Assembly: GCA_017983795.1 (NCBI GenBank)
Contig: JAGOAS010000014.1
Span: 1-64,000 of the forward strand
Reading direction: 5' to 3'
Source of the DNA: Piscinibacter sp.
GTDB taxonomy: Bacteria > Pseudomonadota > Gammaproteobacteria > Burkholderiales > Burkholderiaceae_C
Length of the DNA stretch: 64,000 nucleotides
Shown: in pieces, positions 22,350 through 59,630 of the stretch
How the letters are laid out: each line of letters starts with the position of its first letter
Position numbering within the stretch: position 1 is the first letter of the stretch
Notes under the pieces: generated by a model
Database searches by the model: none
What the model was told of the DNA's origin: nothing
What the model saw: only the letters and a program-made list of their open reading frames with translations
Program-made: the position numbers and the translations under genes

Positions 22350-22900
22350 CGCCCGACTCCGCGCTGCACGCGCTGCAGATGCTCGGCGGCGCGATAGAGC
22401 CCGGCCAGCGCCAGCAGCACGAAGCCCGGCAGCATCAGCGCCTGCCCCACCCACAGCGGCAGGCCGAGGATCATGGTGGTCTCGCCGGCCGCGTGCACGC
22501 TGGCCACGCCGGCGCCGGTGCGCCAGGCCAGCAGCGCGCCGAAGGCCGCCACCAGCGCCGAGCCCACGGCGTCGAGCGCATGCACCGCGCGCTCGGGCAG
22601 GCGTTCGGTGAAGAAGTCGACCTTCACGTCGCCGTGGTTGAGGTGGCACCAGGCGAAGAAGGACGAGGACGCGAAGGCCGCGCACAGCTGCAGCAGTTCG
22701 ACATCGCCCGGCACCGGCGCCGAGAACAGCTTGCGCCCGCTGATGGAGACGATGGACATCGCCACCAGCGCCACGAAGACCAGCGCGCCGAGCACCGCCG
22801 CCAGCTGGCAGGCGCCGGCCAGCCAGCGGCCCAGAGCGCCGAAGGCGCGCGGCGGCGCGGCGGCGCCCTCCGCGTGAACGGGTGGTAGCGCCTCGTTCAC
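22346..22900 (-). CDS. dctQ: TRAP transporter small membrane subunit DctQ
   Basis: 184 residues with four transmembrane helices and the DctQ hallmark of a charged segment between helices 2 and 3 ([22 protein letters not shown], about 78-98). The first 25 residues are a proline/alanine-rich cytoplasmic tail. It is coupled to the acyl-CoA dehydrogenase gene upstream (4-base overlap) and to dctM downstream, so uptake and catabolism are co-expressed. Confidence 0.87.
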
Positions 22901-24093
22901 GAACGCTGCTCCTGCGCCGCCGCCTCCAGCGTGCGCGCGCCGATGATCAGCTCCAGCACCTCGCTGGCGCCTTCGTAGATGCGCAGCGCGCGGATCTCGC
23001 GGTACAGCCGCTCCACCACCACGCCCTGCACCACGCCCAGGCCGCCGAACAGCTGCACCGCGCCGTCGATGACGCGCTGCGCCGCCTCGGTGGCATGCAG
23101 CTTGGCCATCGAGGCCTCGCGCGTGACGCGCACGCGCTGCACGTCCTTGGTCCAGGCGGCGCGATAGACCAGCAGCGCCGAGGCGTCGATGGCCACCGCC
23201 ATCTCGCCGATCTTCTTCTGCGTGAGCTGGAAGTCGGCCAGCGTGTGGCCGAACATGCGCCGCCCGCGCGCGCGTTGCATGGCCTCCAGCATGGCGCGGC
23301 GCGCGAAGCCCAGGCCCGCCGCGCCGACGGTGGTGCGGAAGCTGTCGAGCGTGCCCATGGCGATCTTGAAGCCCTGCCCCGGCTCGCCCAGCAGCGCGTC
23401 GTCATCGACGCGGCAATCGGTCAGGCGCACGGTGCCCAGCGGGTGCGGGGCGATGACGGGGATGCGCTCGCTGGCGTCCAGCCCCGGCGTGCGCGCGTCG
23501 ACCATGAAGGCCGAGATGCCGCGTGCGCCGGCTTCGCCGCTGCGCGCGAAGACCACGTAGTGGTCGGCCAGGCCGGCGTTGGAGATCCAGGTCTTGGTGC
23601 CGTCCAGGCGCCAGCCGCCACCGGGCAGGCGCGTGGCGGTGGTGCTCATCGCCGCCACGTCGGAGCCGGCATCGGGCTCGGAGAGCGCGAAGGCCGTGAT
23701 GATGCGCCCCTCGGCCACGCCGGGCAGCAGGCGCTGCTGCTGCGCCGCGCTGCCGAACAGCGTGACCGGCGCGCTGCCCAGGCCCTGCATGGCGAGTGCG
23801 AAATCGGCCAGGCCCGAGGCGCGCGCCAGCACCTCGCGGCCGAGCGCCAGCGAGCGCACGTCGAGCTGCTCACGCACCCCGCCGCAGGCCGCGGGCACGC
23901 ACACGCGCAGCAGCCCGGCGCGGCCCAGCGAGCGCACCAGCCGCTCGATGCAGGCGTACACGGCGTCCGAGCTGTCCTCGGCGCCGTGCAGCAGCGCCGG
24001 CAGCTCGTCGGCCACCCAGCGCTCGAACTGCGGCACCAGCGCGCGGTGGCCGTCGTCGAAGAAGGGCCAGGCCAGGTCGGACGGCGCGCTCAT
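22897..24093 (-). CDS. Acyl-CoA dehydrogenase, candidate cyclohexanecarboxyl-CoA dehydrogenase
   Basis: 398 residues of the FAD acyl-CoA dehydrogenase family: [13 protein letters not shown] near residue 135 (FAD/substrate), [16 protein letters not shown] near 165, and the C-terminal [16 protein letters not shown] whose glutamate is the usual catalytic base of medium-chain type enzymes. Lying with a badH-like SDR, two enoyl-CoA hydratases and a CoA ligase, it fits AliB, which forms cyclohex-1-ene-1-carboxyl-CoA. Another possibility is side-chain beta-oxidation of a phenylalkanoate. Start at 24093 is two bases downstream of the hydratase stop. Confidence 0.8.
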
Positions 24094-24095
24094 CG

Positions 24096-24914
24096 TCAAT
24101 CGCCTTCGAAGACGGGCTTCTGCTTGGCGGCGAAGGCGTGGTAGGCGCGCTCGAAGTCCTTGGTCTGCATGCAGATGGCCTGCGCCTGCGCTTCGGCCTC
24201 GATGCATTCGCCCAGGCCCGAATTCCATTCCTGCCAGAGCATGGTCTTGGTCATCGCGTGGCCGAAGGTCGGGCCCTCGGCCAGGCTCTGCGCCAGCGCC
24301 TGCGCTTCGGCCAGCAGTTGCTCGGGCTCGACCAGGCGGTTGTGGAAGCCCATGCGCTCGGCCTCCTCGCCGCCCACGGCGCGGCCGGTGTAGAGCAGAT
24401 CGGCCGCGCGCGACAGGCCGATCAGGCGCGGCAGCAGCGTGCAGGCGCCCATGTCGGCGCCGGCCAGGCCGACGCGCACGAACAGGAAGGCCAGCTTGCT
24501 GCGCGCCGTGGCCAGGCGCATGTCGGAGCCGCAGGCGATCATCGCGCCGGCGCCGGTGCACACGCCGTCGATGGCGGCGACGATGGGCTGCGGGCAGGCG
24601 CGCATGGCCTTCACCAGATCGCCGGTCATGCGCGTGAACTCGAGCAGCTCGGGCATGTCCATCTTCACCAGCGGCCCGATGATCTCGTGCACGTCGCCGC
24701 CGCTGCAGAAGTTGCCGCCCTCGCCGGTGAAGACGATGGCCTTGATGTCGGTGGCGTAGCACATCTCGCGGAACAGGTCGCGCAGCTCGCCGTAGGAATC
24801 GAAGGTGAGCGGGTTCTTGCGATCGGGCCGGTTGAGCCGAATGGTGGCCACCTTGCCGCTGCTCGAGTAGCCGAAATGCCGGGCCTGGTAGCCGGCGAGC
24901 TGGACACGCTTCAT
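24096..24914 (-). CDS. Enoyl-CoA hydratase/isomerase family protein
   Basis: 272 residues of the crotonase fold: [16 protein letters not shown] near residue 27, [15 protein letters not shown] near 66 (first oxyanion-hole half), [19 protein letters not shown] near 118 and [24 protein letters not shown] near 143. The glutamate usually found in the second catalytic position (E144 or E164 of rat hydratase) is not obvious, which could indicate isomerase or hydrolase activity. It is encoded between the BadH-like SDR and the acyl-CoA dehydrogenase and may hydrate an alicyclic or ring-derived enoyl-CoA. Confidence 0.8.
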
Positions 24915-24955: not shown

Positions 24956-25702
24956 TCAGCCGGCCATGGTCAGACCACCGCTGACGCTGAGCACCTGGCC
25001 GGTGACGTAATCGGAATGCGCTCCGGCGAAGAAGGCGATGGCATCGGCCACCTCCTGCGGCTGGGCGAGGCGGCGCAGCGGGATGGCCTTGATCAGCGCG
25101 TCCTTCACCTTGTCGGGCACGGCGGCCATCAGCGGCGTGTCGGTCGGGCCCGGGCAGACGCAGTTGACGTTGATGCGGTAGCGCGCCGTCTCGCGCGCCA
25201 GCGCCTTGGTGAAGGCGATCAGCCCGCCCTTGGCGCCGGAGTAGACCGTCTCGCCCAGGCTGCCGACGCGGCCGGCATCGCTGGCCACGTTGACGATCTT
25301 GCCGCGCGCGCGTTCCATCATGGCCGGCAGCAGCGCCTTGGTCAGCGTCATCGGGCCGACGAAGTTGAGCGCCACCACCTGCTGCCAGAACTCCGGCGTG
25401 CCCTCCCAGAACGGCGCGGTGCGGCCCCAGCCGGCGGCGTTGACCAGCACGTCCACCGCGCCGTGCTTGCGCTGCACGGCATCGGCGAAGGCGGCGATCG
25501 AAGCCGCGTCGGTGAGGTCCACCGCGAGGAATTCGGCCTCGTGGCCGGCCGCGCGCAGCTCGGCGGCGGCGCGCTCGCCGGCCTCGGCGTTGATGTCGGC
25601 GACGATGAGGCGCGCGCCTTGCGCGGCCAGCGCCGACGCGGTGGCGCGGCCGATGCCCGATGCGGCGCCGGTGACGACGGCCAGTTGCTTGGGTTCACTC
25701 AT
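24956..25702 (-). CDS. badH: Short-chain dehydrogenase, 2-hydroxycyclohexanecarboxyl-CoA dehydrogenase (BadH-like)
   Basis: 248 residues of the classical SDR family: TGAASGIG nucleotide motif (residues 12-19), VNAAG near 90, catalytic serine in [10 protein letters not shown] near 140 and YSGAK near 154. The order ligase-hydratase-SDR and the presence of badI elsewhere in the window point to BadH, which oxidises 2-hydroxycyclohexane-1-carboxyl-CoA with NAD. The ATG overlaps the stop of the upstream hydratase gene. Assignment to this substrate is by context; SDRs are not substrate-diagnostic by sequence alone. Confidence 0.78.
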
Positions 25703-26484
25703 GCTTGCTCCTTGGTGGGCGCCGCGTTCTTGTCGAGGAAGGCGGTGACGCGGCGGCGGGTTTCGGGGTTCTGATACAGGCGCCGCGTGGCGGCGATCTC
25801 GGCGGCGTAGCCCTCGCCCGGCACGGCCGCGGCCAGCGCGATGCAGCGTTTGTTCTCGGCCAGCGTGTAGCGCGGCACTTGGGCAGCACGCTCGGCCAGC
25901 GCCTGCGCCGCGGACTGCAGCGCAGCGCGCGGCACCGACCACTGCACCAGGCCCATCTGCAGGGCGTGTTCACCCGTCAGCGTCTCGCCGCCGAGGATCA
26001 GCCGCCGCGCCAGGCCGGGGCCGAGCAAGCGCGTCAGGCGTTGCGTGCCGCCACCCGCGGCGAGCAGGCCCAGGCCCGCTTCGGGCAGGCCGACGCGCGC
26101 CTCGTGCGCGGCGATGCGCCAGTCGCAGGCCAGCGCCAGCTCGAAGCCGCCACCCAGCGTGGCGCCGCCGAGCTCGGCGAGCGTCAGGCAAGGCAGCTGC
26201 TCGAGCCGCGCGAAGACGCGCTGCATGGCCTGCACCGTGGCCAGCATGCGCTCCAGCCCCTGCGGCGTGGCGACGCTGGCGCGGATCAGCGCGAGATCGG
26301 CGCCGGCGCAGAACACCTTGTGCGCGCTGCGCAGGTGCAGCACCGCGATGCTCTCGTCGCGCTCGGCCTCGACCAGGGCCGCATCCAGCCTTGCCAGCAA
26401 TTCGTCGTCGATGGCGTTGACCGGCGCCCGATCCAGCGTCGCCACCAGCGTGCCGCCGCGGCGCTCGAGCTGCACCGCGCTCAT
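25699..26484 (-). CDS. Enoyl-CoA hydratase, BadK-like
   Basis: 261 residues, crotonase superfamily: SAHKVFCAGADLALI near residue 52, GGATLGGGFELALACDWRIAA near 105 and LPEAGLGLLAAGGGTQRLTRLLG near 130, where the glutamate of LPEAGLG is the usual catalytic residue. This complete hydratase active site makes it the better BadK (cyclohex-1-ene-1-carboxyl-CoA hydratase) candidate of the two hydratases in this operon. Coupled by ATGA to the ligase fusion upstream and to badH downstream. Confidence 0.78.
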   Translation of the reverse strand: MSAVQLERRGGTLVATLDRAPVNAIDDELLARLDAALVEAERDESIAVLHLRSAHKVFCAGADLALIRASVATPQGLERMLATVQAMQRVFARLEQLPCLTLAELGGATLGGGFELALACDWRIAAHEARVGLPEAGLGLLAAGGGTQRLTRLLGPGLARRLILGGETLTGEHALQMGLVQWSVPRAALQSAAQALAERAAQVPRYTLAENKRCIALAAAVPGEGYAAEIAATRRLYQNPETRRRVTAFLDKNAAPTKEQA

Positions 26485-28625
26485 GCAACTGGCCCCATCA
26501 ATTCCGCGAGCTTGCGGCGCAGCATCTTGCCGGTGGCGGTGCGCGGGATGGCCTCCACCGTGTGCAGCCAGCGCGGGCGCTGGTAGTGCGGCAGCGTCTC
26601 CATGCGTTCGCGCAAGGCCTGTTCGACGGCGGCCTGCTCGCCTTCGCGGGCGACGAAGAAGTAGGCCAGCGCATCGATGCCGTCGGCATCGGCCACGCGC
26701 ACCGCCGCGCCTTCCACCAGGCCCGGCGTGCCCGAGCCCAGGCGTTCTTCCAGGTCGTTGAGGTTGACCCAGCGGCCCTTGATCTTCAGCAGCGTGTCTT
26801 CGCGGCCGGCGAAGCGCCAGCCGCCGCCGGCGGTGGCCACGAACAGGTCGGCCGGGCAGAAGGCACCGTCGCGGAAGCTGTCGGCCTGCGCGGCCGGGCG
26901 GTCGAGGTAGCCGAGCGCCTGCATGTCGACGCGGAAGCACAGCCGCGTGGGCCGGCCCGTGGCGGCGGCCTCGGCGTCGAGCGGGCGCAGCTGCACGCCC
27001 GGCGAGGGCTGCAGGCCGTCGTCGCCTTCGCAGGCCGTGAGCACCAGCACCAGGGTTTCGGAAGCGCCGTAGCCGTCGACCATGGGCAGCCCGGTCTGCG
27101 CGCGCCAGGCATCGCGCAGGCTCTGCGGCAGCGCTTCGCCGGCCGATACGCACAGGCGCAGCCCGGCCGCTGCCAGGCCCGGCGCCAGGCCCTCGTGCAG
27201 CATCAGGCGGTAGAGCGAGGGCACGCTGAACAGCACCGTCGGCCGCGCCGCGGCCACCGTGGCAGCCACGCTCTGCGCGGTCGGCCACTGCGGATCGAGC
27301 ACCACCGTGGCGCCCAGCTTCAGGCCGGCCCACAGGCTGTTGGTCTGCGGGTAGGAGAAGAAGAGGCGCGAGCTCGCGAACAGGCGATCCTCGGCCGTGA
27401 TGCCCAGCCGCTCGCGCGAGACGCGCTCGACCTCGCGCGCGAAGCGGTGCGCATGCACCACCGCCTTGGGCTTGCCCGAGGTGCCCGAGGAGTGCACCCA
27501 GAAGGCCGGCGTGTCGGGGTCGACCAGGCGCGGCGCCACCGGGCTGGCCGCAGACACCGCGCGCCGCCCTTCGTCGACCAGCACGACCTTGTCGCGCCAG
27601 GGCGGCGGCGTGTCGTCGGCGCTCTCGGCGAGGATGACGGTGAAGCCCGCCTCGTCGAGGATGTAGTGCCACTCGGGCGTCGGGATCTTCGGATTCACCG
27701 CCACCGCGGTGCCGCCCGCCCACAGCGTGCCGAGAAAGGCCACCACCCAGTCCAGCCCGTCGGGCAGCTTGATGGCGACGCGGTGGCCGCGCTCCAGGCC
27801 GCGTGCGCGCCACACGGCGGCGGCGCGGGCGACGCGGTCGCGCAGCTCGCCGTGCGTGAGCTGCTGGTCGCCGCACACCAGCGCGATGCGCTCGGCATCG
27901 TGGCCTTGCAGCAGCAGCGCGGCGGCGTTGATCAGGCCTTCGGCCGAGCTCGCAACCGGACTCGAGGCCGCCGCCGCACCGGCGCCGAACAGCCCCGGCC
28001 GGCCCTGCTGCCAGCGCTGCAGCTCGGTGGCGAGCGTGCTGGCGTGCTCCTGCTCCTCGGCGGCCAGTTCGCGGAACAGCGCGGCCTCGGCCGAACCCGC
28101 GGGCGCGGCATCGGCATGCTCGGTGAAGAAGGCCGCGGCGCGCCGCTCCAGCGCGATGGCGATGCGGAACAGGTTGTCGGGATCCTGCGGGCGGTGCGCC
28201 ACGTCGGCGAACAGCGCCGCCACCTCGACGCGGAAGGTCGGCGAGGGGTCGGGCACGTCGAGGTGGTAGCGCCGCGCCAGCGTCTCCATGTGCTCGCCTT
28301 CCATCACGGCGAAGCGGCCGAACAGCTGGCGCAGCGCGGGGTCGGTGCTGTCGGCCGCGGCGCGCTGGTAGAAGGCGCGGCCGCCGAGCTCGATCTCGAA
28401 GGCCATGCGCACCGCATGCAGCGCGGCGCCGCCCGGCACGGCCCGCTCGCCTTCGCACAGCTGCAGCGCGCCGCCGCATTGCGGGCAGCGGCCGTAGGGC
28501 AGCGCGAAGCCTTCGCTCAGCTTGCCGCAGCCCTCGCAGCGCCATTGCATGGGCGCGCCGGCGCAGCAGATGTAGGGGCCTTCGCTGTCGTCGGCCAGCG
28601 GGCGTTGGCAACGGGGGCACAGCAT
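26481..28625 (-). CDS. Fusion: zinc ribbon + rubrerythrin-like diiron domain + benzoate-CoA-ligase-type AMP ligase
   Basis: 714 residues in three parts. Residues 1-60 hold four cysteine pairs (C3/C6, C20/C21, C30/C33, C47/C50). Residues 65-205 form a ferritin-like four-helix domain with E77/E79, E109-x-x-H112, E160 and E191-x-x-H194. Residues 240-714 are an ANL ligase of the benzoate-CoA ligase family: SSGTSGKPKAVVHAH, YGASETLVLV, GREDTLLKIKG and RTATGKMLRRK. Position before badK-like, badH and the acyl-CoA dehydrogenase suggests activation of cyclohexane- or cyclohexene-carboxylate (AliA role) or 4-hydroxybenzoate, since it also follows hcr genes. The ATG at 28625 sits behind ACGGAG; a start at 28670 would overlap the upstream gene. 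The fusion is open throughout with no frameshift. Confidence 0.85.
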   Translation of the reverse strand: MLCPRCQRPLADDSEGPYICCAGAPMQWRCEGCGKLSEGFALPYGRCPQCGGALQLCEGERAVPGGAALHAVRMAFEIELGGRAFYQRAAADSTDPALRQLFGRFAVMEGEHMETLARRYHLDVPDPSPTFRVEVAALFADVAHRPQDPDNLFRIAIALERRAAAFFTEHADAAPAGSAEAALFRELAAEEQEHASTLATELQRWQQGRPGLFGAGAAAASSPVASSAEGLINAAALLLQGHDAERIALVCGDQQLTHGELRDRVARAAAVWRARGLERGHRVAIKLPDGLDWVVAFLGTLWAGGTAVAVNPKIPTPEWHYILDEAGFTVILAESADDTPPPWRDKVVLVDEGRRAVSAASPVAPRLVDPDTPAFWVHSSGTSGKPKAVVHAHRFAREVERVSRERLGITAEDRLFASSRLFFSYPQTNSLWAGLKLGATVVLDPQWPTAQSVAATVAAARPTVLFSVPSLYRLMLHEGLAPGLAAAGLRLCVSAGEALPQSLRDAWRAQTGLPMVDGYGASETLVLVLTACEGDDGLQPSPGVQLRPLDAEAAATGRPTRLCFRVDMQALGYLDRPAAQADSFRDGAFCPADLFVATAGGGWRFAGREDTLLKIKGRWVNLNDLEERLGSGTPGLVEGAAVRVADADGIDALAYFFVAREGEQAAVEQALRERMETLPHYQRPRWLHTVEAIPRTATGKMLRRKLAELMGPVA

Positions 28626-28641: not shown

Positions 28642-30999
28642 TCAGTGCGAGGCGGCAACGCCGGCCGCATCGGCGGTGTCGGCAGCGTCGGTCGTGGCCA
28701 GCGGCACCGGCGCCGGCGGCCACTCGGCGCGATCGCCCTGCAGCCAGTGGTGGATGGCCTGCGCGGCGCGGCGGCCGGCGGCCATGGCCAGGATCACGGT
28801 GGCGCCGCCGGTGACGATGTCGCCGCCGGCGAAGACGCCGCGCAGGCTGGTGGCCTGGGTCTGGCCATCGGCGGAGATGAAGCCGCGCGCATCCAGCGTG
28901 AGCCCCGGCGTGGCGCGGCCGACGATCGGGTTGGCCTGCGTGCCCAGCGCATAGATCACGCTGTCGCAGGGCCACTCGACGAACTCGTCGAGCGGCAGCG
29001 GCTGGCGGCGGCCACGCGCATCGGGCTCGCCGAGCATCATCTTCTGCGCCTTCAGGCCGCGCACGTCGCCCTTGTCGTCGAGCAGGATCTCCACCGGCGC
29101 GTGCAGGAAGGAGAACTGCACGCCCTCCTCGCGCGCATGGCGCAGCTCCTCCACGCGCGCCGGCGCCTCGGCCTCGCTGCGCCGGTAGACGCAGCGCACC
29201 TCGGCGGCGCCGAGGCGGCGCGCGGTGCGCAGGCAGTCCATCGCGGTGTTGCCGGCGCCGATCACCATCACGCGCTGGCCGATGCCCACCGGCGTGTCGT
29301 GGTAGGGGAAGCGGTCGCCGCCCATCAGGTTGACGCGCGTGAGGAACTCGTTGGCCGAGAGCACCTGCCCCGCCGATTCGCCCGGCAGGCCGAGGAACAG
29401 CGGCGCGCCGGCGCCGGCGGCGATGAATACCGCATCGAAGCCCATGCGCTCCATCAGCTGCTGGATGCCGAAGGTCTTGCCGATGACCTTGTTGGTCTGG
29501 AACTTGACGCCGGCATCGCGCAGCTGCTGCAGCTCGCGCTCGATCACGTCGCGCGGCAGCCGGAACGAGGGGATGCCATAGCGCAGCACGCCGCCCACCA
29601 CATGCAGCGCCTCGAACACCGTGACGTCGTAGTCGGCGGCGGCGAGATCGGCCGCCGCCGCCAGCCCGCCGGGGCCCGAGCCGACGATCGCCACGCGGCC
29701 CGGCGCGGCCCAGCCCAGCCCGACCGCGCGCGAGGGCTGCGGCGCCGGCGCGTGATCGCCGACGAAGCGCTCGAGCCGGCCGATGGCCACCGGCTCCATG
29801 CGCGCCTTGATCAGCACGCACTGCGCCTCGCACTGGCTCTCCTGCGGGCAGACACGCCCGCAGATCGAGGGGAACGGACTCGATTCGTGGATCGCCGCCA
29901 GCGCCGCGGGCAGGTCGCGCACCATCAGGTGGCGGATGAAGCGCGGGATGTCGATGCGCACCGGGCAGCCTTCGATGCAGGTCGGCTTGACGCACTGGAT
30001 GCAGCGTTCCGCCTCGCGCAGCGCATCGGCCTGCGCGTAGCCGAGGTTCACTTCGTCGAAGCAGCTGGCGCGCTGCTGCGCGTCGCGCTCGGGCATCGCC
30101 ACCTGGTGCTTCTCGACCGCCGCGTATTTCTTGTAGGTGCGCTTGCCCTGGCGCATCAGCAGGTCTTCCAGGCTGCAGACGTGGGCGTGGTCGGCGTTGG
30201 CCTGCTGTTCCTGCTGGCGGAAGCGCCGCTGGCGCGCCATCAGCTCGTCGAAGTCGATCTGGTGGGCGTCGAAGTCGGGGCCGTCGACGCAGGCGAACTT
30301 CACCTTGCCGGCCACCGTGACGCGGCACGATCCGCACATGCCGGTGCCGTCGACCATGATGGTGTTGAGCGACACCAGCGTGTGCACGCCGAAGGGCCGC
30401 GAGGCCTCGGCGCAGGCGCGCATCATCGGCATCGGACCGATGGCCACCACCAGGTCGGCGCGGTCCTCGCGCAGCACCTCGGTCAACGCGGCGTCGACGA
30501 AGCCGGCACGGCCCGCGCTGCCGTCGTCGGTGCAGACGATCAGCTCGTCGGCCCACTCGGCCAGCTTGTCCAGCCAGAAGCGGCGCGAGGCGTCGCGGAA
30601 GCCGACGATGCAGGTGGTGCGGTTGCCGGCCAGCTTGAAGGCGCGCAGCTGCGGGAAGACCGGCGCCACGCCCAGGCCGCCGCCCACCAGCACCACGTGG
30701 CCGTGCTGGCCGATGTGCTGCGGCAGGCCGAGCGGGCCGACGAAATCGAGCACCTCGTCGCCTTCGGCGAACTGGTCGCGCATCGCGAGCGTGGTCTTGC
30801 CCAGCGCCTGCACCACCACGGTGACGGTGCCGCGCTGGCGGTCGAAGTCGGCCACCGTCAGCGGAATGCGCTCGCCGTCCTCGTGCAGGCGCAGCATCAC
30901 GAAGTGGCCGGGCTCGGCGGCGGCGGCCACGTCGGGCGCCTCGATCTCCCACAGGAAGCTCAGCTCGGAGAACTGCTCGCGGCGAACGATGCGGGCCAT
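28642..30999 (-). CDS. Fused NfnA-NfnB: NADH-dependent reduced ferredoxin:NADP oxidoreductase
   Basis: 785 residues. The N-terminal third (1-290) is NfnA-like: FAD-binding GHFVMLRLHEDGERIPLT, NAD-binding VLVGGGLGVAPVFPQ and the [2Fe-2S] block GTGMCGSCRV...VKFACVDGP. The rest is NfnB-like (GltD family): cysteine motifs AERCIQCVKPTCIEGCP and ICGRVCPQESQCEAQC for two [4Fe-4S] clusters, then VAIVGSGPGGLAAA and VMVIGAGNTAMDC nucleotide-binding sites. NfnAB usually is two subunits and bifurcates electrons between NADPH, NAD and ferredoxin. Placed between hcrB and the CoA ligase, it may supply reduced ferredoxin for 4-hydroxybenzoyl-CoA and benzoyl-CoA reduction. Direction of flow is not shown by sequence. 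Confidence 0.88.
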   Translation of the reverse strand: MARIVRREQFSELSFLWEIEAPDVAAAAEPGHFVMLRLHEDGERIPLTVADFDRQRGTVTVVVQALGKTTLAMRDQFAEGDEVLDFVGPLGLPQHIGQHGHVVLVGGGLGVAPVFPQLRAFKLAGNRTTCIVGFRDASRRFWLDKLAEWADELIVCTDDGSAGRAGFVDAALTEVLREDRADLVVAIGPMPMMRACAEASRPFGVHTLVSLNTIMVDGTGMCGSCRVTVAGKVKFACVDGPDFDAHQIDFDELMARQRRFRQQEQQANADHAHVCSLEDLLMRQGKRTYKKYAAVEKHQVAMPERDAQQRASCFDEVNLGYAQADALREAERCIQCVKPTCIEGCPVRIDIPRFIRHLMVRDLPAALAAIHESSPFPSICGRVCPQESQCEAQCVLIKARMEPVAIGRLERFVGDHAPAPQPSRAVGLGWAAPGRVAIVGSGPGGLAAAADLAAADYDVTVFEALHVVGGVLRYGIPSFRLPRDVIERELQQLRDAGVKFQTNKVIGKTFGIQQLMERMGFDAVFIAAGAGAPLFLGLPGESAGQVLSANEFLTRVNLMGGDRFPYHDTPVGIGQRVMVIGAGNTAMDCLRTARRLGAAEVRCVYRRSEAEAPARVEELRHAREEGVQFSFLHAPVEILLDDKGDVRGLKAQKMMLGEPDARGRRQPLPLDEFVEWPCDSVIYALGTQANPIVGRATPGLTLDARGFISADGQTQATSLRGVFAGGDIVTGGATVILAMAAGRRAAQAIHHWLQGDRAEWPPAPVPLATTDAADTADAAGVAASH

Positions 31000-31022: not shown

Positions 31023-31997
31023 TCAGGCGCGCGTCCAGAGTTCGTCGGTGAGCCGGCGCACCAGCGCCTGCAGCATGCGGCGTCGGTATTTCACCGGCGC
31101 GACGGTGGTCGAGAGCACGTTGGCGGTGGCCTGCACCGCCTTGGCGAGCGTGGCCGCGGCCTCGGTGTCCCAGGCCCGGCCGGTGACACCCTCGGTCGGC
31201 ACCACCAGCGGCGCCGAGTTGGTGCCGGTGATCGCCACGCGCAGGCCGGCGAGCCGATCGCCCTCGCGGCGCAGCGCGACCGCCACGCCGGCGAGCGGGA
31301 AGTCGACCGCATCGCGCACGCGCGCCTTGGCGTAGTCGGCACGCCAGTCGTTCATGGCCGGCACGACGATGGCCGTGAGCCACTCGCCGGGTGCGAGCGT
31401 CAGCCGGCGCGCGCCGTCCTCGACGAACAGCGCGGCCACCGGCAGCGTGCGTGTGCCGGCGGGGCCGGCGATCTCGACGCTCGCATCGAGCGCGATCAGC
31501 GCCGGCGCGACGTCGCCGTGGTAGGTGGCGTAGCAGCGGTCGCTCTTGACGACCACGTGGCATTTGTCGCCGCGCAGCTTGAGGCAGTAGCCATTGCCGG
31601 CGCGCCACCACTCGCTCTGGTTGTAGAACACGCAGCGCGTGTCCTGGCACAGGTTGCCGCCCAGCGTGGCGGCCTCGCGGTGCGTCGGGCCGGCAACGAG
31701 GCCGGCGGCGGTCGCCACTGCCGGCCAGCCGGTGCGCACCGCGGCCTGGCCTGCCAGCGCGGCCAGCGTCGCCGCGGCGCCGACGCGCAGGCTGCCGTCG
31801 GCCTGCACGCTGATCGCATCGAGCGCGGCAATCGCTGTCAGATCGACCAGCACGCGCGGCGTGCCCAGGCCGCGGCGCAGGTTGGGCAGCAGGTCGGTGC
31901 CGCCGGCCAGCGGCTGCGCGCCCTCTTCGGCCAGCGCGCGCACCGCCTCGTCGATGCTCGCCGGGCGCAGCGTGCGCAGATCGTGCAGCGCGTTCAT
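31023..31997 (-). CDS. hcrB: 4-Hydroxybenzoyl-CoA reductase beta (FAD) subunit
   Basis: 324 residues, the FAD subunit of the xanthine oxidase family. It carries the insertion special to 4-hydroxybenzoyl-CoA reductase with cysteines at 122, 138, 146 and 155 ([33 protein letters not shown]), the same numbers I recall for the extra [4Fe-4S] cluster of the Thauera aromatica enzyme. FAD contacts are [10 protein letters not shown] near 31 and [12 protein letters not shown] near 111. It removes the phenolic hydroxyl of 4-hydroxybenzoyl-CoA to give benzoyl-CoA. Its ATG overlaps the hcrA stop. Confidence 0.95.
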
Positions 31998-34336
31998 CGC
32001 ACTTCCTCCGCGCTGCGCGCGGCCTTGGCCGCAGCGGCTTGTTTCGCGTCGAGCAACTCGGCGATGCGATCCGGGCTGAGCGGGAAGCTGTTGCAGTCGA
32101 CGCCGGCGGCTTCCTGCACCGCCTCGCGCAGCGCCGGCAGGAAGCCGGCGAGCATGCCTTCGGAGGCTTCCTTGGCGCCGAAGGGCCCGTTCGGATCGAC
32201 GCTCTCGACGATGAGCACCTCGATGTCCGGGCTCTCGGCCATGGTCGGCACGCGGTAGTCGAGCAGGTTGCCGTGCAGCATGCGGCCGGCGTCGTACTCG
32301 GTCGACTCGGACAGCGCCTGGCCCATGCCCATCCACACGCCGCCCTGCGCCTGGCCTTCGACGGCCAGCGGATTGAGCGCGCGCCCGACGTCGACCGCCA
32401 CCCACACCTTGTGCGCCGTGACCTTGCCGCTCAGTTCGTCGACCGAGGCCTCGACCACCTGCGCCGCGTAGCAGAAGCCCATGGTGGCGCCGATGGCGCT
32501 GCCGCGGATCTTCTTGTCGCCCTGGAACTCGATCGGGCAGGTGTAGGTGCCCTTGACCGTGACGGCACCGCTGTCGACCATCGCCGCGCGCACCGCCTCG
32601 ATCCAGCTCAGGCCCGCTTGCTCGCTGTCGCGCGCGAAGAAGATCTCGTCGCGCACCTCGATGTCGTCCGGCACCACCTTGAGTCGCGCGGCAGCCGCCT
32701 TCACCAGCAGCGCCTTCAGCTCCAGCGCCGCAGCGATCGACGCGCGGCCGACCATGAAGGTCACGCGCGAGGAATAGCTGCCGTTGTCCTTGGGCGTCAC
32801 CGCGCTGTCCGACGAGACGACGCGGATGCGCGAGAGCGCGACGTCCAGCACCTCGGCGGCGCATTGCGCGGCCATGGTGTTGGAGCCCTGGCCGATGTCG
32901 GCGGCGCCGGTGAAGAGCGTCACGCCGCCGTCGAAGTCCAGGCGCAGCTGCACCGTGGCGTGCGGCTCACCCGTCCAGTGCTTGGGCGTGGAGGTGCCCG
33001 ACACGAAGTGCGAGCAGGCCAGGCCGAGGCCGCGGCCCTTGGGCATGTGGCGCTTGCGCTCGTTCCAGCCCGAGGCCGCCTTCACCTTCTCCAGGCACTC
33101 GGGCAGGCCGTAGCTGAGCACGTTCTGCGCATACATCGTGCGGTACGGAATCTGCGGCAGCAGGTTCTTCTGCCGCACGGCCAGCGCATCGAGGCCCAGT
33201 TCGGCCGCCATGTCGGTGAGCAGCGCCTCGAAGGCGGCGCGCGTGTCCACCGTGCCGTGGCCGCGCTGCGCGCCGCAGGGCGGCAGGTTGGTGTAGACGC
33301 GCCAGGCGTCGTGCTTGATGGCCGGGATGTCGTAGATGCCGTGCATCAGCGCCCCGGTGTAGAGGATGGTGATGATCCCGTAGCCGGCATAGGCGCCACC
33401 GGCCTGCGTGGCCTCCAGCGCGAGCGCGGTGATGCGGCCGTCACGCTTGAGGCCGATCTTCATCTTCACCGCCGTCCAGGGCCGGCCGCGGTGGGCGAGG
33501 AAGGTCTCCTCGCGCGTCTGCAGCAGGCGCACGGCGGCGCGCGCGCGGTGCGCCAGCAGCGCGGCGATGATCTCGAAGTGCAGGCACTCGGTGCGCGCGC
33601 CGAAGCCGCCGCCGAGGAAGGGCTTGATCACCCGCACCTGCGCTTCCTGGATCTGCAGGCAGGCCGCCACCTTGAGGTGCACGTAGTACGGCACCTGCGT
33701 GGTGGTGTGCAGCGTCACGCCGTCGCGCTCCATGTCGTACTCGGCGAGCGTGGCGTTGGGCTCCATGTGCGCGTGGTTCACCTCGGCGAAGGTGAAGCTT
33801 TGCTCGCGCACCAGGTCGGCTGCCGCGAAGCCGGCGGCGCTGTCGCCGAACTCGGCGTGCACCTCGCGCAGCACGTTGTCGGGCTTGTCGTCGTGGATCG
33901 CCACCGCGCCGGCCTTGCGCGCCGCCTTGGCGGTGAAATAGGCCGGCAGCACTTCGTACTCGACCGCGATCAGCGCCAGCGCGCGCTCGGCGGTGGCTTC
34001 GTCGACCGCCGCCACCGCGGCCACCGGGTCGCCGCGGTAGCGCACCTTGCCGCGCGCCAGCGGGTATTCGTTCTCGGCGATCGGCAGCACGCCGAAGGGC
34101 ACCGGCGTGTCTTCGCCGGTGCACACCGCCTGCACACCCGGCAGCGCCTGCGCGGCGGCCGTGTCGATGGACACGATGCGCGCATGCGGATGCGGGCTGC
34201 GCAGGATGCGCCCGACCAGTGCGCCGGGCGCCGCGATGTCGGCGGTGTAGCGGGCGCGGCCGGTGACCTTGTCGAAGCCGTCGATCAGCGGCGTGTGCAC
34301 GCCGATGCCGCCGGCGCGGGTCATGCGTGGCTTCAT
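31994..34336 (-). CDS. hcrA: 4-Hydroxybenzoyl-CoA reductase alpha (molybdenum) subunit
   Basis: 780 residues, molybdopterin-cytosine-dinucleotide subunit of the xanthine oxidase family. The N-terminal domain begins [16 protein letters not shown]; the cofactor-binding blocks [11 protein letters not shown] near residue 235 and [15 protein letters not shown] near 475 are clear. It pairs with HcrB and HcrC, here in the gene order C-A-B. Length agrees with the Thauera subunit (about 769). Seventy bases of dispersed repeat separate it from hcrC, yet all three remain on one strand and probably one transcript. Confidence 0.93.
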
Positions 34337-34337
34337 A

Positions 34338-34410
34338 GTGCCCCCTTGGCGCTACGCGCCGTCCCCCCGAGGGGGAGCGAGCGCCTTCGGAACGGCCGCG
34401 CGGCGCTCAT
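34338..34410. repeat. Dispersed GC-rich palindromic repeat, copy 2, inside the hcr operon
   Basis: Core CCCCCGAGGGGG followed by CTTCGGAACGGCCG as in copy 1 at 5998-6065; a second arm GCGCTACGCGC precedes the core. It runs up to the hcrC stop codon and fills the hcrC-hcrA gap. Confidence 0.7.
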
Positions 34411-34883
34411 CTCGCCCCCTTCACAGCGGCCGCCGCCTGCACCGACTCGACGATCTTCACGTAGCCGGTACAGCGGCACAGGTTGCCGGCCAGCGCGGTC
34501 TTGATCTCGTCGACGCTCGGATCCGGGTTGGCGCGCAGCAGGCCTTCGGACGCCATCACCATGCCCGGCGTGCAGAAGCCGCACTGCGCGCCCAGCTTGT
34601 CGTGGAAGGCCTGCTGCACCGCCGACAGCCGGCCCTGGCGGGCCAGGCCTTCGACCGTCTCGATGCGCCGCCCCTCGACCTGCACCGCCAGCGTCGAGCA
34701 GGCCAGCCGCGGCCGGTCGTCGACCAGCACCGTGCAGGCGCCGCACTCGCCGCCGTCGCAACCCTGCTTGGTGCCGGTCAGTGCCAGCGCATCGCGCAGC
34801 ACATCGAGCAGCAGCGCACCGTCGGCCGCGGCGATCTCGTGCACGCGACCGTTGACGTTCAGACTCAGCACCCGCTTGCTCAC
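34407..34883 (-). CDS. hcrC: 4-Hydroxybenzoyl-CoA reductase gamma ([2Fe-2S]) subunit
   Basis: 158 residues with the two [2Fe-2S] motifs of the family: plant-type CDGGECGACTVL near residue 45 with a later cysteine (LACSTL), and CGFCTPGMVM plus NLCRCTGY near 105 and 140. I chose the GTG at 34883 because GGAGGG lies 7 bases before it; the ATG at 34907, eight codons earlier, has no ribosome site and sits beside the palindromic operator. First gene of the hcr-nfn-ali-TRAP operon and divergent from a LysR gene. Confidence 0.92.
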   Translation of the reverse strand: MSKRVLSLNVNGRVHEIAAADGALLLDVLRDALALTGTKQGCDGGECGACTVLVDDRPRLACSTLAVQVEGRRIETVEGLARQGRLSAVQQAFHDKLGAQCGFCTPGMVMASEGLLRANPDPSVDEIKTALAGNLCRCTGYVKIVESVQAAAAVKGAR

Positions 34884-34918
34884 GCCGTCGCCCTCCGGGT
34901 TTTCCATAAGACGATTTC

Positions 34919-36169: not shown

Positions 36170-36577
36170 ATGAAACCCAGCCTGCAGCCCGGCGTGACGC
36201 GCAACGTGCGCGTCGACATCGACCGCGAGCGCACCATCGACTTCATGGGCGAGAAGGCGCGCGTCTATGCCACGCCCTCGCTGCTGCGCGACATCGAGGT
36301 TTCCTGCCGCGAGCTGCTGCTCGAGCACCTGGACGCCGGCGAGGATTCGGTGGGCACGCGCGTCGAGCTCGACCACACCGGCGCCACGCTGATGGGCATG
36401 AAGGTCGAGCTGCAGATCGCCATCGCCGAGGTGCAGGGCCGCAGCGTGACCTTCGACGTGAGCGGCAGCGACGGCATCGACGCCATCTGCAAGTGCCGCC
36501 ACCAGCGCTTCGTGGTCGACGTGGCCAAGACCGAGCAGCGGCTCGCGGCCAAGGCGCAGAAGGCCGGGCTGGCGTGA
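36170..36577 (+). CDS. Hotdog thioesterase, FlK (fluoroacetyl-CoA thioesterase)-like
   Basis: 135 residues of the hotdog fold: an N-terminal VTRNVRVDIDRERTIDFMGE, the FlK-like strand YATPSLLRDIEVSCRELLLEHL (about 35-56) and SVGTRVELDHTGATLMGMKV near 62-80, with threonine/glutamate/histidine-type catalytic residues (T37, E50 and H70 region) in plausible places. Its stop overlaps the GTG start of padB. In this operon it could hydrolyse phenylglyoxylyl-CoA or relieve accumulation of phenylacetyl-CoA; that is inference. Start behind GGAGACAAGCC. First gene of a five-gene operon. Confidence 0.82.
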   Translation: MKPSLQPGVTRNVRVDIDRERTIDFMGEKARVYATPSLLRDIEVSCRELLLEHLDAGEDSVGTRVELDHTGATLMGMKVELQIAIAEVQGRSVTFDVSGSDGIDAICKCRHQRFVVDVAKTEQRLAAKAQKAGLA

Positions 36578-39330
36578 GCGCTGCCGCCGCGCCGCCGGCC
36601 GGCACGCGCCGCGTGCCGACCTACTGCTACCAGTGCGTGGCAGGCCCCGACCTGCTGACCGTGAAGGTGCAGGACGGCGTGGCCACCGAGGTCGAGCCGA
36701 ACTTCTGCGCCGCCGCGGTGCACCCCGGCGGCGGCAAGGTCTGCGTCAAGGCCTTCGGGCTGATCCAGAAGACCTACAACCCCAACCGGGTGCTGACGCC
36801 GATGAAGCGCAGCAACCCGAAGAAGGGCCGCGACGAGGATCCGGGCTTCGTGCCCATCAGCTGGGACGAAGCCTTCGACCTGATCGCCGCGCAGCTCAAC
36901 CGCCTGCGCGCCGAAGGCCTGACCGACGCCTCGGGCTACCCGCGCCTGGCCGCCAGCTTCGGCGGCGGGGGCACGCCGCAGTTCTACATGGGCACCCTGC
37001 CCGCCTTCCTGGCCGCCTGGGGGCCGGTGGACATGGGCTTCGGCTCGGGCCAGGGCGTCAAGTGCTACCACTCCGAGCACCTGTACGGCGAGCTGTGGCA
37101 CCGCGCCTTCATCGTCGCGGCCGACACGCCCAGCTGCAACTACCTGATCAGCTGCGGCAACAACATCGAAGCCGCCGGCGGCGTGGTGGGCGTGTGGCGC
37201 CACGCCGATGCGCGCGTGCGCGGCATGAAGCGCGTGCAGGTCGAGCCGCACCTGTCGGTGACGGGCGCCTGCTCGGCGCAATGGGTGCCGATCAAGCCCA
37301 AGACCGACGCCGCGTTCCTCTATTCGCTCATCCACGTGATGCTGCACGAGGCGCCGCGCAGCCAGCTCGATCTGCCGCACCTGGCGCAACGCACCAGCTC
37401 GCCCTACCTGGTGGGGCCGCACGGCTACTACCTGCGTGACCGCGCCACGCGCAAGCCGCTGGTGTGGGACGAAGCCGGCGCGCGCGCCGTGCCGCACGAC
37501 ACGCCGGGCATCCGCGAGGCGCTGTCGGCGCGCGTGCAGGTCGACGCGATCGAGATCGGCGCCGACGAGGAAGTGCTGGCCGATGGCCTGCTCGAGGGCG
37601 AGACGGCCTTCGACAAGCTGGTGGCGCACATGGCGCCCTATTCGCCCGAATGGGCGGCCGGCATCTGCGACGTTCCCGCCGCCACCATGCGCACCATCGC
37701 GCAGGAGTACCTGGCGCACGCCTGCGTCGGCCAGACCATCACCATCGGCGGCAAGACCCTGCCCTTCCGCCCGGTGGCGGTGACGCTGGGCAAGACCGTC
37801 AACAACGGCTGGGGCGGCTACGAATGCTGCTGGGCACGCACGCTGCTGGCCACGCTGGTGGGCGCGCTCGAAGTGCCGGGCGGCACCATCGGCACCACGG
37901 TGCGTCTGGTCAAGCCCATGGCCGAGCGGCACGACAGCGTGCGCGCCGGCGAAGACGGGCTGATGGACTACCCCTTCAACCCCACCTCGAAAGAGCAGTG
38001 GTCGGCGCAGCCCAACATCCGCAACGCCTACAAGACCATGGTGCCGCTGACCGGCAACAACGCCTGGGCGCAGGCGCTGGGGCCGACGCACTTCTCGTGG
38101 ATGTTCCTCGACAGCACGCCCAAGGGCCTGCCCAAGGTCGAGCCGCCCGACGTGTGGTTCGCCTACCGCACCAACCCGGCGATCTCGTTCTGGGACACGC
38201 CGGGCGTGGCGGCCAAGATCGCGCGCTTTCCGTTCATCGTCGCCTTCGCCTACACGCGCGACGAGAGCAATCATTTCGCCGACGTGCTGCTGCCCGACGC
38301 CACCGACCTCGAAGGCCTGCAGCTGCTGCGCCTGGCGGCCACCAAGTACCAGGAGCAGTTCTGGGAGCACGAAGGCTTCGCGCTGCGCCAGCCGGTGGTG
38401 GCCCCCCGCGGCGAAGCGCGCGACTTCACCGACATCTGCACCGAACTGGCGCGGCGCTGCGGCATCCTCGAGAAGTACAACGCCGCCATCAACCGCGGCA
38501 CCTGCGGCGTCAAGCTCGACGGGCCTCATGGCGACTTCTCGCTCGACCCCAAGGTGGCGCACGGCCGCGACGCCATCTGGGATGCCGCCTGCAAGGCCGC
38601 CAGCGCGGAGCTCACCGAGGGCGCCGAGGTGCTGGGCCTCGATTGGTGGAAAGAGAACGGCCTCAAGACGCGGCCCTTCCCGCGCGAGCAGTGGTACCTC
38701 TACCCGACCGTGGTCGAGCGCGGGCTGCGCTTCGAGATGCCCTACCAGGAGCGCCTCAAGCGCATCGGCGTGCAGCTCGGCCGGCGCCTGCACGAGGCCG
38801 ACATGCACTGGTGGGACAAGCAGCTCGAGGAATACCAGGCACTGCCGCCCTGGAAGGATTTCCCCGGCCTGTGGGAAGCCAGCGTCGCCAAGGCCGGCGG
38901 CGAGCTTGCCGACTACCCGTTCTGGCTGGTCACCGCGCGCAGCATGCAGTACGCCTGGGGCGGCAACGTCGGCGTGCAGATGATCCGCGAGGTGGCGGGC
39001 AACATCAGCGGCCACGGCGGCGTGGTGATGAACCCGCGCGCCGCCGAGCGCCTGGGGCTGGCCGAAGGCGACCTGGTCGACATCGCCACCCCGCGCCGCG
39101 CGACGCAGGGCCACGTGGTGCTGCGCCAGGGCATACGCCCCGACACGCTGCTGCTCATCGGCCAGTTCGACCACTGGGTCACGCCGCTGGCCAAGGACTT
39201 CGGCGTGCCCAGCCTGAATACGCTGGCCGAGATGTCGCTCGACCTGACCGACGCCACCGGCTCGGGCGCCGATCTGGTGCGCGTGAAGCTGAGCAAGGCG
39301 CGCGGCGCGCTGAAGGGGGCCCGCACATGA
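36574..39330 (+). CDS. padB: Phenylacetyl-CoA:acceptor oxidoreductase, molybdenum subunit PadB
   Basis: 918 residues, DMSO-reductase family (bis-MGD) enzyme. The N-terminal [4Fe-4S] ligands are visible as CYQC (about residues 18-21), NFC and KVCVKAF. The C-terminal molybdopterin-binding domain includes AWGGNVGVQMIREVAGNISGHGG-type segments near 790 (quoted in part) and DWWK/EWW-like loops. The family catalyses four-electron oxidation of phenylacetyl-CoA to phenylglyoxylate. The GTG at 36574 overlaps the thioesterase stop (GTGA); no Tat signal precedes the cysteine motif, implying a cytoplasm-facing enzyme. PadC and PadD follow with ATGA couplings. Confidence 0.88.
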   Translation: MSAAAAPPAGTRRVPTYCYQCVAGPDLLTVKVQDGVATEVEPNFCAAAVHPGGGKVCVKAFGLIQKTYNPNRVLTPMKRSNPKKGRDEDPGFVPISWDEAFDLIAAQLNRLRAEGLTDASGYPRLAASFGGGGTPQFYMGTLPAFLAAWGPVDMGFGSGQGVKCYHSEHLYGELWHRAFIVAADTPSCNYLISCGNNIEAAGGVVGVWRHADARVRGMKRVQVEPHLSVTGACSAQWVPIKPKTDAAFLYSLIHVMLHEAPRSQLDLPHLAQRTSSPYLVGPHGYYLRDRATRKPLVWDEAGARAVPHDTPGIREALSARVQVDAIEIGADEEVLADGLLEGETAFDKLVAHMAPYSPEWAAGICDVPAATMRTIAQEYLAHACVGQTITIGGKTLPFRPVAVTLGKTVNNGWGGYECCWARTLLATLVGALEVPGGTIGTTVRLVKPMAERHDSVRAGEDGLMDYPFNPTSKEQWSAQPNIRNAYKTMVPLTGNNAWAQALGPTHFSWMFLDSTPKGLPKVEPPDVWFAYRTNPAISFWDTPGVAAKIARFPFIVAFAYTRDESNHFADVLLPDATDLEGLQLLRLAATKYQEQFWEHEGFALRQPVVAPRGEARDFTDICTELARRCGILEKYNAAINRGTCGVKLDGPHGDFSLDPKVAHGRDAIWDAACKAASAELTEGAEVLGLDWWKENGLKTRPFPREQWYLYPTVVERGLRFEMPYQERLKRIGVQLGRRLHEADMHWWDKQLEEYQALPPWKDFPGLWEASVAKAGGELADYPFWLVTARSMQYAWGGNVGVQMIREVAGNISGHGGVVMNPRAAERLGLAEGDLVDIATPRRATQGHVVLRQGIRPDTLLLIGQFDHWVTPLAKDFGVPSLNTLAEMSLDLTDATGSGADLVRVKLSKARGALKGART

Positions 39331-39998
39331 CGCGTTGGGCCATGGTTGCCGACCTGCGCCGCTGCGTGGGCTGCCAGACCTGCACCGCGGCCTGCAAGCA
39401 CGCCAATGCCACGCCGCCGGGCGTGCAGTGGCGCCGCGTGATCGACATGGAGGTGGGCGAGTACCCCGACGTGCAGCGCGCCTTCGTGCCGGTCGGCTGC
39501 CAGCACTGCGACGAGCCGCCGTGCATGGAGGTGTGCCCGAGCACGGCGACGAAGAAGCGTGCCGACGGCATCGTCACCATCGACTACGACCTGTGCATCG
39601 GCTGCGCCTACTGCGCCGTGGCCTGCCCCTACCAGGCGCGCTACAAGACCGAGCGGCCGAGCTTCGCCTACGGCCGGCAGACCGAGCAGGAGCGCAAGCG
39701 CCAGGACGACTCGCGCCTGGGCGTGGCCACCAAGTGCACCTTCTGCGTCGACCGCATCGACTACGGCATGGAGAACAACCTCACGCCCGGCGTCGACCCC
39801 GAGGCCACGCCGGCCTGCGTCAACGCCTGCATCGCGCAGGCGCTCGCCTTCGGCGACCTCGACGATCCGCAGAGCAACGTGTCCAAGCTGCTGGCCGAGA
39901 ACCAGAGCTTTCGCATGCACGAGGAACTGGGCACCGGGCCCGGCTTCCACTACCTGTGGGACCGCAAGGACGGCGACGAGACGCCGCCAACGTCATGA
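39327..39998 (+). CDS. padC: Phenylacetyl-CoA:acceptor oxidoreductase, iron-sulfur subunit PadC
   Basis: 223 residues with four [4Fe-4S] cysteine sets in the DmsB/NrfC style: CVGCQTCTAACKH near residue 13, CQHCDEPPCMEVCP near 58, CIGCAYCAVACP near 91 and CTFC...CVNAC near 138-172. It passes electrons from the molybdenum subunit to the membrane subunit. ATGA overlaps join it to padB and padD. No signal peptide. Confidence 0.9.
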   Translation: MTRWAMVADLRRCVGCQTCTAACKHANATPPGVQWRRVIDMEVGEYPDVQRAFVPVGCQHCDEPPCMEVCPSTATKKRADGIVTIDYDLCIGCAYCAVACPYQARYKTERPSFAYGRQTEQERKRQDDSRLGVATKCTFCVDRIDYGMENNLTPGVDPEATPACVNACIAQALAFGDLDDPQSNVSKLLAENQSFRMHEELGTGPGFHYLWDRKDGDETPPTS

Positions 39999-40831: not shown

Positions 40832-40873
40832 ACGCATCGGCATCGTCGTCCCCCCTCACCCCTAGGAGGCGTC

Positions 40874-59577: not shown

Positions 59578-59630
59578 ATGTGCAGCGGCACGGCGCGCGT
59601 TCACTGAGCGCCTCGAACAGGAGGAGACAC

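Follow-up and report, generated by a model that had tools for sequence, protein, structure and literature searches.

The 64,000-nt stretch analyzed here (the window) belongs to contig JAGOAS010000014.1 of the Piscinibacter sp. assembly GCA_017983795.1, and it carries on its minus strand a gene that encodes a ferritin-like module and a CoA ligase as one protein. We designated residues 1–206, comprising an eight-cysteine segment and a diiron module, "FER", and the ligase, residues 233–714, "LIG". The gene is an uninterrupted frame of 714 codons starting with an ATG at 28625; a GGAG motif ends 10 nt before this ATG, and the stop codon of the upstream gene is 16 nt away. Pfam assigned Rubrerythrin (PF02915, E 9e-9) and AMP-binding (PF00501, E 1.8e-58, 198.6 bits) to the protein, and AMP-binding_C matched with E 6.3e-5 at 24.2 bits, slightly below its cut-off of 24.5. 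A preliminary description of this stretch had proposed a single frame joining four cysteine pairs and a set of ferritin-like ligands to a ligase with intact motifs; the frame was borne out, and all of these elements were found in the protein.

Relatives of FER were collected with a nine-row FER alignment, which was run against a single genome for each species, and the best 80 of 225 relatives were kept. Two search patterns were used, one of which contained E77/E79, and these two residues were therefore partly selected for. The 80 loci had three architectures: 38 were FER-ligase fusions, 23 encoded a free FER, and in 19 FER was joined in one frame to AadN, a fused Nfn-like ferredoxin reductase. 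The domain order of the window thus recurs elsewhere, and the identical joint is present in other assemblies, as the 38 fusion loci came from 36 of them (two contributed two loci each). Residue counts given below refer to these loci plus the window (39 proteins) or to all FER modules (81). That an assembly or frameshift error merged two genes, which the preliminary description had named as a possible refutation, has virtually no probability: nothing was found in its favor, it is contradicted by the other fusion loci, two of which are from named isolates, and both parts of the protein show codon-level constraint. Assembly error was thus ruled out. An internal ATG from which the ligase could be translated on its own was also ruled out, as no methionine was conserved in residues 205–299 (at most 7 of 35 rows; ATG was the only start codon considered). 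The fusion is real and conserved. A search of the open literature, judged by the titles and abstracts shown for the papers listed, found no description of it, and "benzoate-CoA ligase" and "rubrerythrin" did not co-occur in the literature searched; "rubrerythrin" and "benzoyl-CoA reductase" co-occurred in four papers. The terms "ebA53", "HcrCAB", and "rubrerythrin" were absent from the main text of a paper on Aromatoleum phenylpropanoid ligase genes (PMC9765128), and "ferritin" and "diiron" were absent from the main text of a review of aryl-CoA ligases (PMC8388817). The domain combination is new and conserved, and it is assembled from known parts.

The cysteines of the window protein are arranged as C3-x2-C6, C20-C21, C30-x2-C33, and C47-x2-C50, and its diiron signature consists of E79 (with E77), E109-x2-H112, E160, and E191-x2-H194. 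Residues C3, C6, C20, C30, C33, C47, C50, E77, E79, E109, H112, E160, E190, E191, and H194 were kept in all 39 fusions, and C21 in 38. The same metal-site residues were kept in all 23 free FER proteins and all 19 one-frame AadN-FER proteins, so that the diiron ligands were invariant in 81 of 81 modules, with the partial selection of E77/E79 applying here as well. In the FER alignment, which contained 60 of the 80 loci and the window (61 members), PF02915 matched every member at E 0.1. The rubredoxin-like model PF21349 matched the cysteine segment in 31 members at the same threshold (window, 15.3 bits; cut-off, 26.5), and two zinc-ribbon models matched it in 26 and 25 members. AlphaFold predicted FER helices at residues 65–92, 96–120, 149–173, and 179–206, with a mean predicted local distance difference test (pLDDT) score of 79 and scores of approximately 56–60 for the first 20 residues. 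The N-terminal part, for which the preliminary description had named a contrary structure prediction as a possible refutation, is thus predicted to form a four-helix bundle carrying the diiron ligands. When this model was compared with the PDB by Foldseek, the Pyrococcus protein 2fzf was the only match at E 0.001 or better; among the matches listed, those that followed were mostly bacterioferritins, ferritins, and Dps proteins. The nearest sequence-profile neighbors were again 2fzf, together with the COG1633 protein 2oh3, and searching PDB sequences with FER gave no full-length rubrerythrin match, only the rubredoxin-like part at E 0.1–0.5. Judged from its sequence, FER appears to have the layout of a reverse rubrerythrin: like Clostridioides difficile revRbr1/2 (PMC7482061), it has an N-terminal cysteine domain and a C-terminal diiron bundle. 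Unlike these proteins, it has the additional cysteines C3, C6, C20, and C21, lacks the helix-C ExxE, and is fused to a ligase.

The ligase domain contains a P-loop (residues 379–388), a YGASE motif (519–523), a hinge (605–620), and a lysine motif (694–706) with K700. The key residues of the P-loop, A5, and the A8 hinge were kept in all 39 fusions and the A10 lysine in 37, the other two showing gaps; two of the fusion loci end within the gene. The nearest solved structures were benzoate-CoA ligases (E 2.2e-57), and the window ligase shares the core motifs of this family (4rlf/4eat, TIGR02262, HbdA NF053567). It differs from the family in carrying an N-terminal FER and in falling below the curated cut-offs, scoring 258.8 bits against the benzoate-CoA ligase model TIGR02262 (cut-off, 375.25) and 313 bits against NF053567 (cut-off, 1000). 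In the fused ligase of L019 and L059 (G101), 523 residues align to 477 of the window ligase, suggesting an insert of approximately 46 residues.

The AlphaFold alignment of the fusions comprised 34 of the 38 loci and the window (35 rows), leaving out the truncated L028 and L088, L059, which lies at a contig edge, and L036, which nearly duplicates L038. Mean pairwise identity among these rows was 67% in the cysteine part, 67% in the bundle, and 64–68% in the ligase, compared with 22% in the short hinge between the cysteine part and the bundle and 30% in the linker between FER and the ligase. The linker measured 9–37 residues between BLAST-aligned parts, and in the full-protein model it was disordered; this model has a predicted template modeling score of 0.62, and the relative placement of its domains is uninformative. 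The ratios of nonsynonymous to synonymous substitution rates (dN/dS), calculated for five pairs by the simple NG86 method, uncorrected for base composition, were 0.22–0.33 for FER and 0.20–0.34 for the ligase. FER and the ligase are similarly constrained, whereas the linker is not. Decay of FER was ruled out by its conservation and dN/dS.

The origin of FER is indicated by NF009413 (PRK12775, "trifunctional"). Residues 3–212 of the window protein match positions 799–1005 of this model (289 bits), and the protein encoded directly upstream matches positions 1–764 (1332 bits); the whole-protein cut-off of 1895 is not reached, as the model is split over the two neighboring genes. FER is therefore a tail that elsewhere belongs to the upstream protein, AadN. 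The window AadN homologue has both Nfn parts in one chain, with NF004862 matching residues 1–274 (369.3 bits; cut-off, 220) and TIGR01316 matching residues 308–753 (505.5 bits; cut-off, 471.75). The one-frame NF009413/PRK12775 loci of Myxococcota, Thiocystis, and Telmatospirillum share the same FER (56–62% identity) and an AadN-type partner with the window. The difference is that FER forms the C-terminus of the Nfn flavoprotein in these loci, whereas the window has it at the N-terminus of the ligase encoded downstream, with the Nfn protein encoded by a separate gene. The AadN of Rhodopseudomonas palustris, as described in PMC9973337, adjoins 4-hydroxybenzoate genes and is required for growth on benzoate and 4-hydroxybenzoate, and it resembles the window AadN in being a fused pattern-B Nfn beside such genes. 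The main text of that paper does not contain "ferritin", "rubrerythrin", or "diiron". Its Table 4 presents AadN and KorAB as mutually exclusive across R. palustris strains, whereas the window has both, an AadN-type Nfn (28642–30999) and KorAB-like genes (59580–62239).

The 19 one-frame AadN-FER loci were mostly from Myxococcota, with two from Thiocystis and one from Telmatospirillum, and no pyruvate:ferredoxin oxidoreductase (PFOR) gene was seen there; the window-gene queries used found no aromatic genes there either. Among the 23 free FER loci, AadN lay 2–137 nt upstream in 22, and L087 begins at a contig edge. A PFOR gene follows the free FER in 13 of the 23, its family being identified by Pfam from one representative. 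This AadN-FER-PFOR order (e.g., L085:7620–15270 and 12 other loci, with AadN out of view in L087) is continued by a dihydroorotate-dehydrogenase-like gene in 11 of the 13, and it looks like an electron-transfer operon. The fusion records are assigned to Burkholderiales or its genera, apart from a few broader names and one "Anaerolineales" metagenome-assembled genome; both domains on the contig of the latter (L036) are near-identical to those of L038, an Aquabacterium locus, and the assignment is probably a binning error. Two isolates carry the fusion, Ramlibacter lithotrophicus (L051) and R. monticola (L066); in the latter, AadN is additionally followed by a free FER (L064).

FER is rare beyond these loci: with the genome of the window counted in both cases, it was found in two genomes among 369 from the class and in two among 398 from the phylum. 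A search of 72,556 plasmid records gave no match at E 1e-5. In a set of 200 genomes from the family, the fusion is present in at least five, one of which is the genome of the window. Nine of these 200 (again including the window's) have ligase relatives with at least 45% identity: five are fused (G000, G098, G017, G199, and G101), three are unfused (G143, 64%; G090, 57%; and G027, 47%), and that of G094 (72%) lies at a contig edge. G094 was set aside as an unfused case, as its ligase is at one contig edge and a FER copy is at another. A set of 399 genomes from the order yielded no further fusion at a threshold of E 1e-90; unfused ligase relatives were found in four of them and a free FER in one. 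Some contigs are present under two names (L043/G098, L059/G101, L060/G027, and L094/G094).

A phylogenetic tree of the ligases recovered a single supported clade (99/97) that contains 41 fused rows as well as G143 and G094; the unfused G090 and G910 fell outside it. This topology fits a single fusion in one lineage followed by at least one later loss of FER. The ligase gene of G090, like that of G143, comes immediately after the beta subunit gene of 4-hydroxybenzoyl-CoA reductase (4-HBCR), without FER; the G143 gene (L126, 7584–10174) apparently represents a natural module loss. In the FER tree, which was midpoint-rooted only, 39 fused modules grouped together with four free ones inside (L039, L040, L050, and L064), and the free FER of L060 and L077, which follows 4-HBCR and AadN, branched as the sister of the remaining 36 free or AadN-fused rows. 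In the simplest history, an AadN-FER pair would have been placed between 4-HBCR and the ligase and one FER-ligase fusion would have followed; AadN would later have disappeared from this position in some lineages, and at least one lineage would have lost FER. The fusion probably arose when the stop codon of FER was lost while the pair lay directly upstream of the ligase gene.

In the window, the 4-HBCR genes lie upstream of AadN, and the fusion gene is followed by genes for two hydratases, an SDR dehydrogenase, an acyl-CoA dehydrogenase, and a TRAP transporter (the features around the fusion are collected in the table). The window also encodes a class I benzoyl-CoA reductase, subsequent ring-modifying enzymes, and korAB-like genes. 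The preliminary description had asked whether the fusion tracks with anaerobic aromatic gene clusters, and the 4-HBCR and class I benzoyl-CoA reductase genes of the window agree with this. In 25 fusion loci, the sequence extends more than 4.5 kb upstream of the fusion; 4-HBCR beta is upstream in 16 of these and not in nine, the latter including three of the closest relatives of the window (L023, L024, and L025). A 4-HBCR/aromatic operon is the commonest setting of the fusion, and the Burkholderiales carrying it appear capable of degrading aromatic acids anaerobically. Directly upstream of the fusion lies AadN in 21 of the 38 loci and 4-HBCR beta in nine; AadN is 991 nt away in one, and neither was seen in seven. 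The genomes of 12 of the 17 fusion loci without a close AadN were searched for a non-adjacent copy: a full match was present elsewhere in six and as two pieces in one, G958 had separate Nfn-like pairs, and G962 had a partial match only. A homologue of the enoyl-CoA hydratase ECH1 directly follows the fusion in 22 of the 34 loci with enough sequence and was not seen there in 12.

Features of the fusion gene and its surroundings (coordinates are those of the window)
Feature	Position	Strand	Evidence
4-HBCR beta, alpha, and gamma subunits	31023..34907	-	TIGR03195, TIGR03194, and TIGR03193, all above curated cut-offs
AadN homologue, fused pattern-B-like Nfn flavoprotein, 785 aa	28642..30999	-	NF009413 positions 1-764, 1332 bits; TIGR01316 and NF004862 above cut-off
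FER-LIG fusion gene, 714 aa	26481..28625	-	Open frame; Pfam and NCBIfam matches; same fusion in 38/80 loci
Eight-cysteine N-terminal segment, residues 1-56 (rubredoxin-like or zinc-ribbon)	28458..28625	-	Seven Cys in 39/39 fusions, C21 in 38/39
Ferritin-like diiron four-helix bundle, residues 66-206	28008..28430	-	PF02915 E 9e-9; invariant ligands; AlphaFold helices
Variable, mostly disordered linker, residues 207-232	27930..28007	-	30% identity (residues 208-232); pLDDT <50 at 214-228
Benzoate-type AMP-forming CoA ligase domain, residues 233-714	26484..27929	-	PF00501 E 1.8e-58; solved neighbors; intact motifs
Enoyl-CoA hydratase ECH1, start overlaps end of fusion gene	25699..26484	-	PF00378 E 1.3e-39
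SDR dehydrogenase, BadH-like	24956..25702	-	TIGR03206 269.9 bits, below cut-off 431.2
Second enoyl-CoA hydratase (NF006107 above cut-off) and acyl-CoA dehydrogenase	22897..24914	-	Pfam/NCBIfam matches

Further aromatic genes lie at 36170–42217 and 48135–50356 of the window: a FlK-like thioesterase, a PadBCD-like molybdoenzyme set, phenylglyoxylate-dehydrogenase-like genes, and a phenylacetate-CoA ligase below its equivalog cut-off. Together, they form a wider anaerobic aromatic island.

Other ferritin-like proteins occur in the same surroundings. A free protein after korB (62236–62775, plus strand) had been taken to have the same diiron domain as the fusion; it is indeed ferritin-like, but it is only a distant relative of FER, with 28–34% identity over stretches of 55–65 residues and an hhalign probability of 87%. 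Among solved structures, its nearest match is 2oh3, a COG1633 protein of Magnetospirillum (E 7.8e-32). Its low identity and missing cysteine part rule out the same domain as stated. A second free ferritin-like protein is encoded just after the SDR gene in 12 of the 22 fusion loci with enough sequence (e.g., L024:13675–14172); where listed, it is 35–40% identical to the korB-linked protein, and the L024 copy lacks the first ExxH glutamate. This gene is absent from the window, where only 42 nt separate the SDR gene from that of the second hydratase. In R. palustris, two unlinked ferritin-like-domain proteins of unspecified type, rpa3943 and rpa3308, are listed in PMC6974649 with log2 values of approximately 5 (approximately 32-fold up) on 4-hydroxybenzoate compared with succinate, one of the two values being starred as significant. 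This induction may give a weak hint as to the role of FER.

Starting from a fusion in a single ligase lineage, with intact diiron and cysteine residues and kinship with an AadN partner or tail, we consider the chances about even that the protein is a two-domain enzyme, in which the aryl-CoA ligase of an anaerobic (hydroxy)aromatic operon carries an AadN-type metal module that reduces O2 or H2O2 and thereby guards the pathway. FER tracks an Nfn-type enzyme and often PFOR, i.e., makers or users of reduced ferredoxin, and enzymes of this kind are commonly oxygen-sensitive. Scavenging of O2 or peroxide by FER would fit this association. NAD(P)H electrons would reach FER via AadN or a similar flavoprotein, the cysteine segment would act as a putative rubredoxin-like electron relay, and the putative diiron site would reduce O2 and/or H2O2 to water, as reverse rubrerythrins do; the latter are reported in PMC7482061 to reduce both with NADH through partner proteins. 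Oxidants would thus be lowered around oxygen-sensitive low-potential enzymes, namely the 4-hydroxybenzoyl-CoA and benzoyl-CoA reductases and ferredoxin reductases. The tether would keep FER co-expressed and equimolar with the entry enzyme, and ligase catalysis need not change. Because aryl-CoA ligases as a class are described as oxygen-insensitive in PMC8388817, FER would protect the pathway and is unlikely to protect the ligase itself. As the operon holds 4-HBCR, 4-hydroxybenzoate is the simplest guess for the ligase substrate.

Several observations weigh against this proposal. Both G143, inside the fused clade, and the early-branching G090 lack FER, and the operon can therefore do without it. 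The gene directly upstream is 4-HBCR beta rather than AadN in the nine loci noted above, and no AadN was found in G953, G956, or G957 among the 12 genomes searched, although these drafts may be incomplete. The rubredoxin-like model remained below its cut-off wherever it matched among nine modules and the zinc-ribbon models fit about equally well, so that any redox iron site in the cysteine segment is putative. Furthermore, an extra glutamate in helix C (ExxE) is a hallmark of rubrerythrins, and FER lacks it: residue 163, three positions after E160, is alanine in 81 of 81 modules. By comparison, the rubrerythrin encoded in the same genome has ETHE in helix C, as found by a motif scan (the automatic alignment did not register helix C). 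FER is therefore not a canonical rubrerythrin.

Other explanations account for some of the same data. It is possible, if rather doubtful, that FER serves only AadN and ferredoxin metabolism and that gene order happened to bring about a neutral fusion with the ligase, without functional consequence. FER accompanies AadN in most loci of all three classes, and the arrangement in L060 and L077 shows it as a free protein behind 4-HBCR and AadN; nevertheless, the fusion persists in loci without an adjacent AadN, and only 2 of the 43 rows of the ligase clade are not shown to be fused, one of them at a contig edge. This persistence, the position in cis at the entry enzyme, and the retention of the fusion and its metal sites across the lineage would also suit a redox gate, in which the oxidation state of the diiron/cysteine module switches the ligase and thereby restricts the entry of aromatic acids into the CoA pathway to anoxic conditions. 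We regard such a gate as unlikely, since the linker varies in length and sequence and is predicted to be disordered, and since the ligase relatives of G143 and G090 hold the same operon place without FER. The chance is likewise small that a module fed by the adjacent Nfn flavoprotein blocks, in cis, the commitment of aromatic acids to the CoA pathway under oxidants. The redox dependence of the ligase raised in the preliminary description is thus unsupported so far, and the same applies to its suggestion of chemistry on a thioester, as 0 of the 19 one-frame AadN-FER loci had aromatic genes recognized with the window-gene queries.

The bundle might instead hold iron for storage or sensing rather than reduce oxidants. 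A site of four glutamates and two histidines resembles that of bacterioferritin, and the Foldseek matches listed after 2fzf were mostly bacterioferritins and Dps proteins; however, a cage built of 714-aa fusions seems unlikely, and the invariance of the cysteine segment suggests that it relays electrons or binds a structural metal, which makes a storage or sensing role improbable. The gene order of a reductase, a diiron protein, a ligase, and a hydratase recalls the Box set, and FER does look like a diiron protein, so that the AadN reductase, FER, the ligase, and the hydratase could be read as a small aerobic epoxidase pathway. This we consider very improbable: FER is a short bundle of approximately 140 residues for which Foldseek gave 2fzf alone at E 0.001 or better, it adjoins PFOR in other loci and has no recognized aromatic genes nearby in Myxococcota, and both 4-HBCR and benzoyl-CoA reductase are encoded in the window.

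Within an anaerobic aromatic operon, a diiron module of ferredoxin metabolism thus seems to have exchanged its Nfn flavoprotein partner for a CoA ligase and then to have been kept under selection. The three natural architectures provide a ready comparison set. If FER removes O2 or peroxide, it would give the "ferritin domain" of NF009413 proteins a biochemical role, and it would offer a testable answer to how the benzoyl-CoA and 4-hydroxybenzoyl-CoA reductases are shielded in facultative anaerobes living at oxic-anoxic boundaries.

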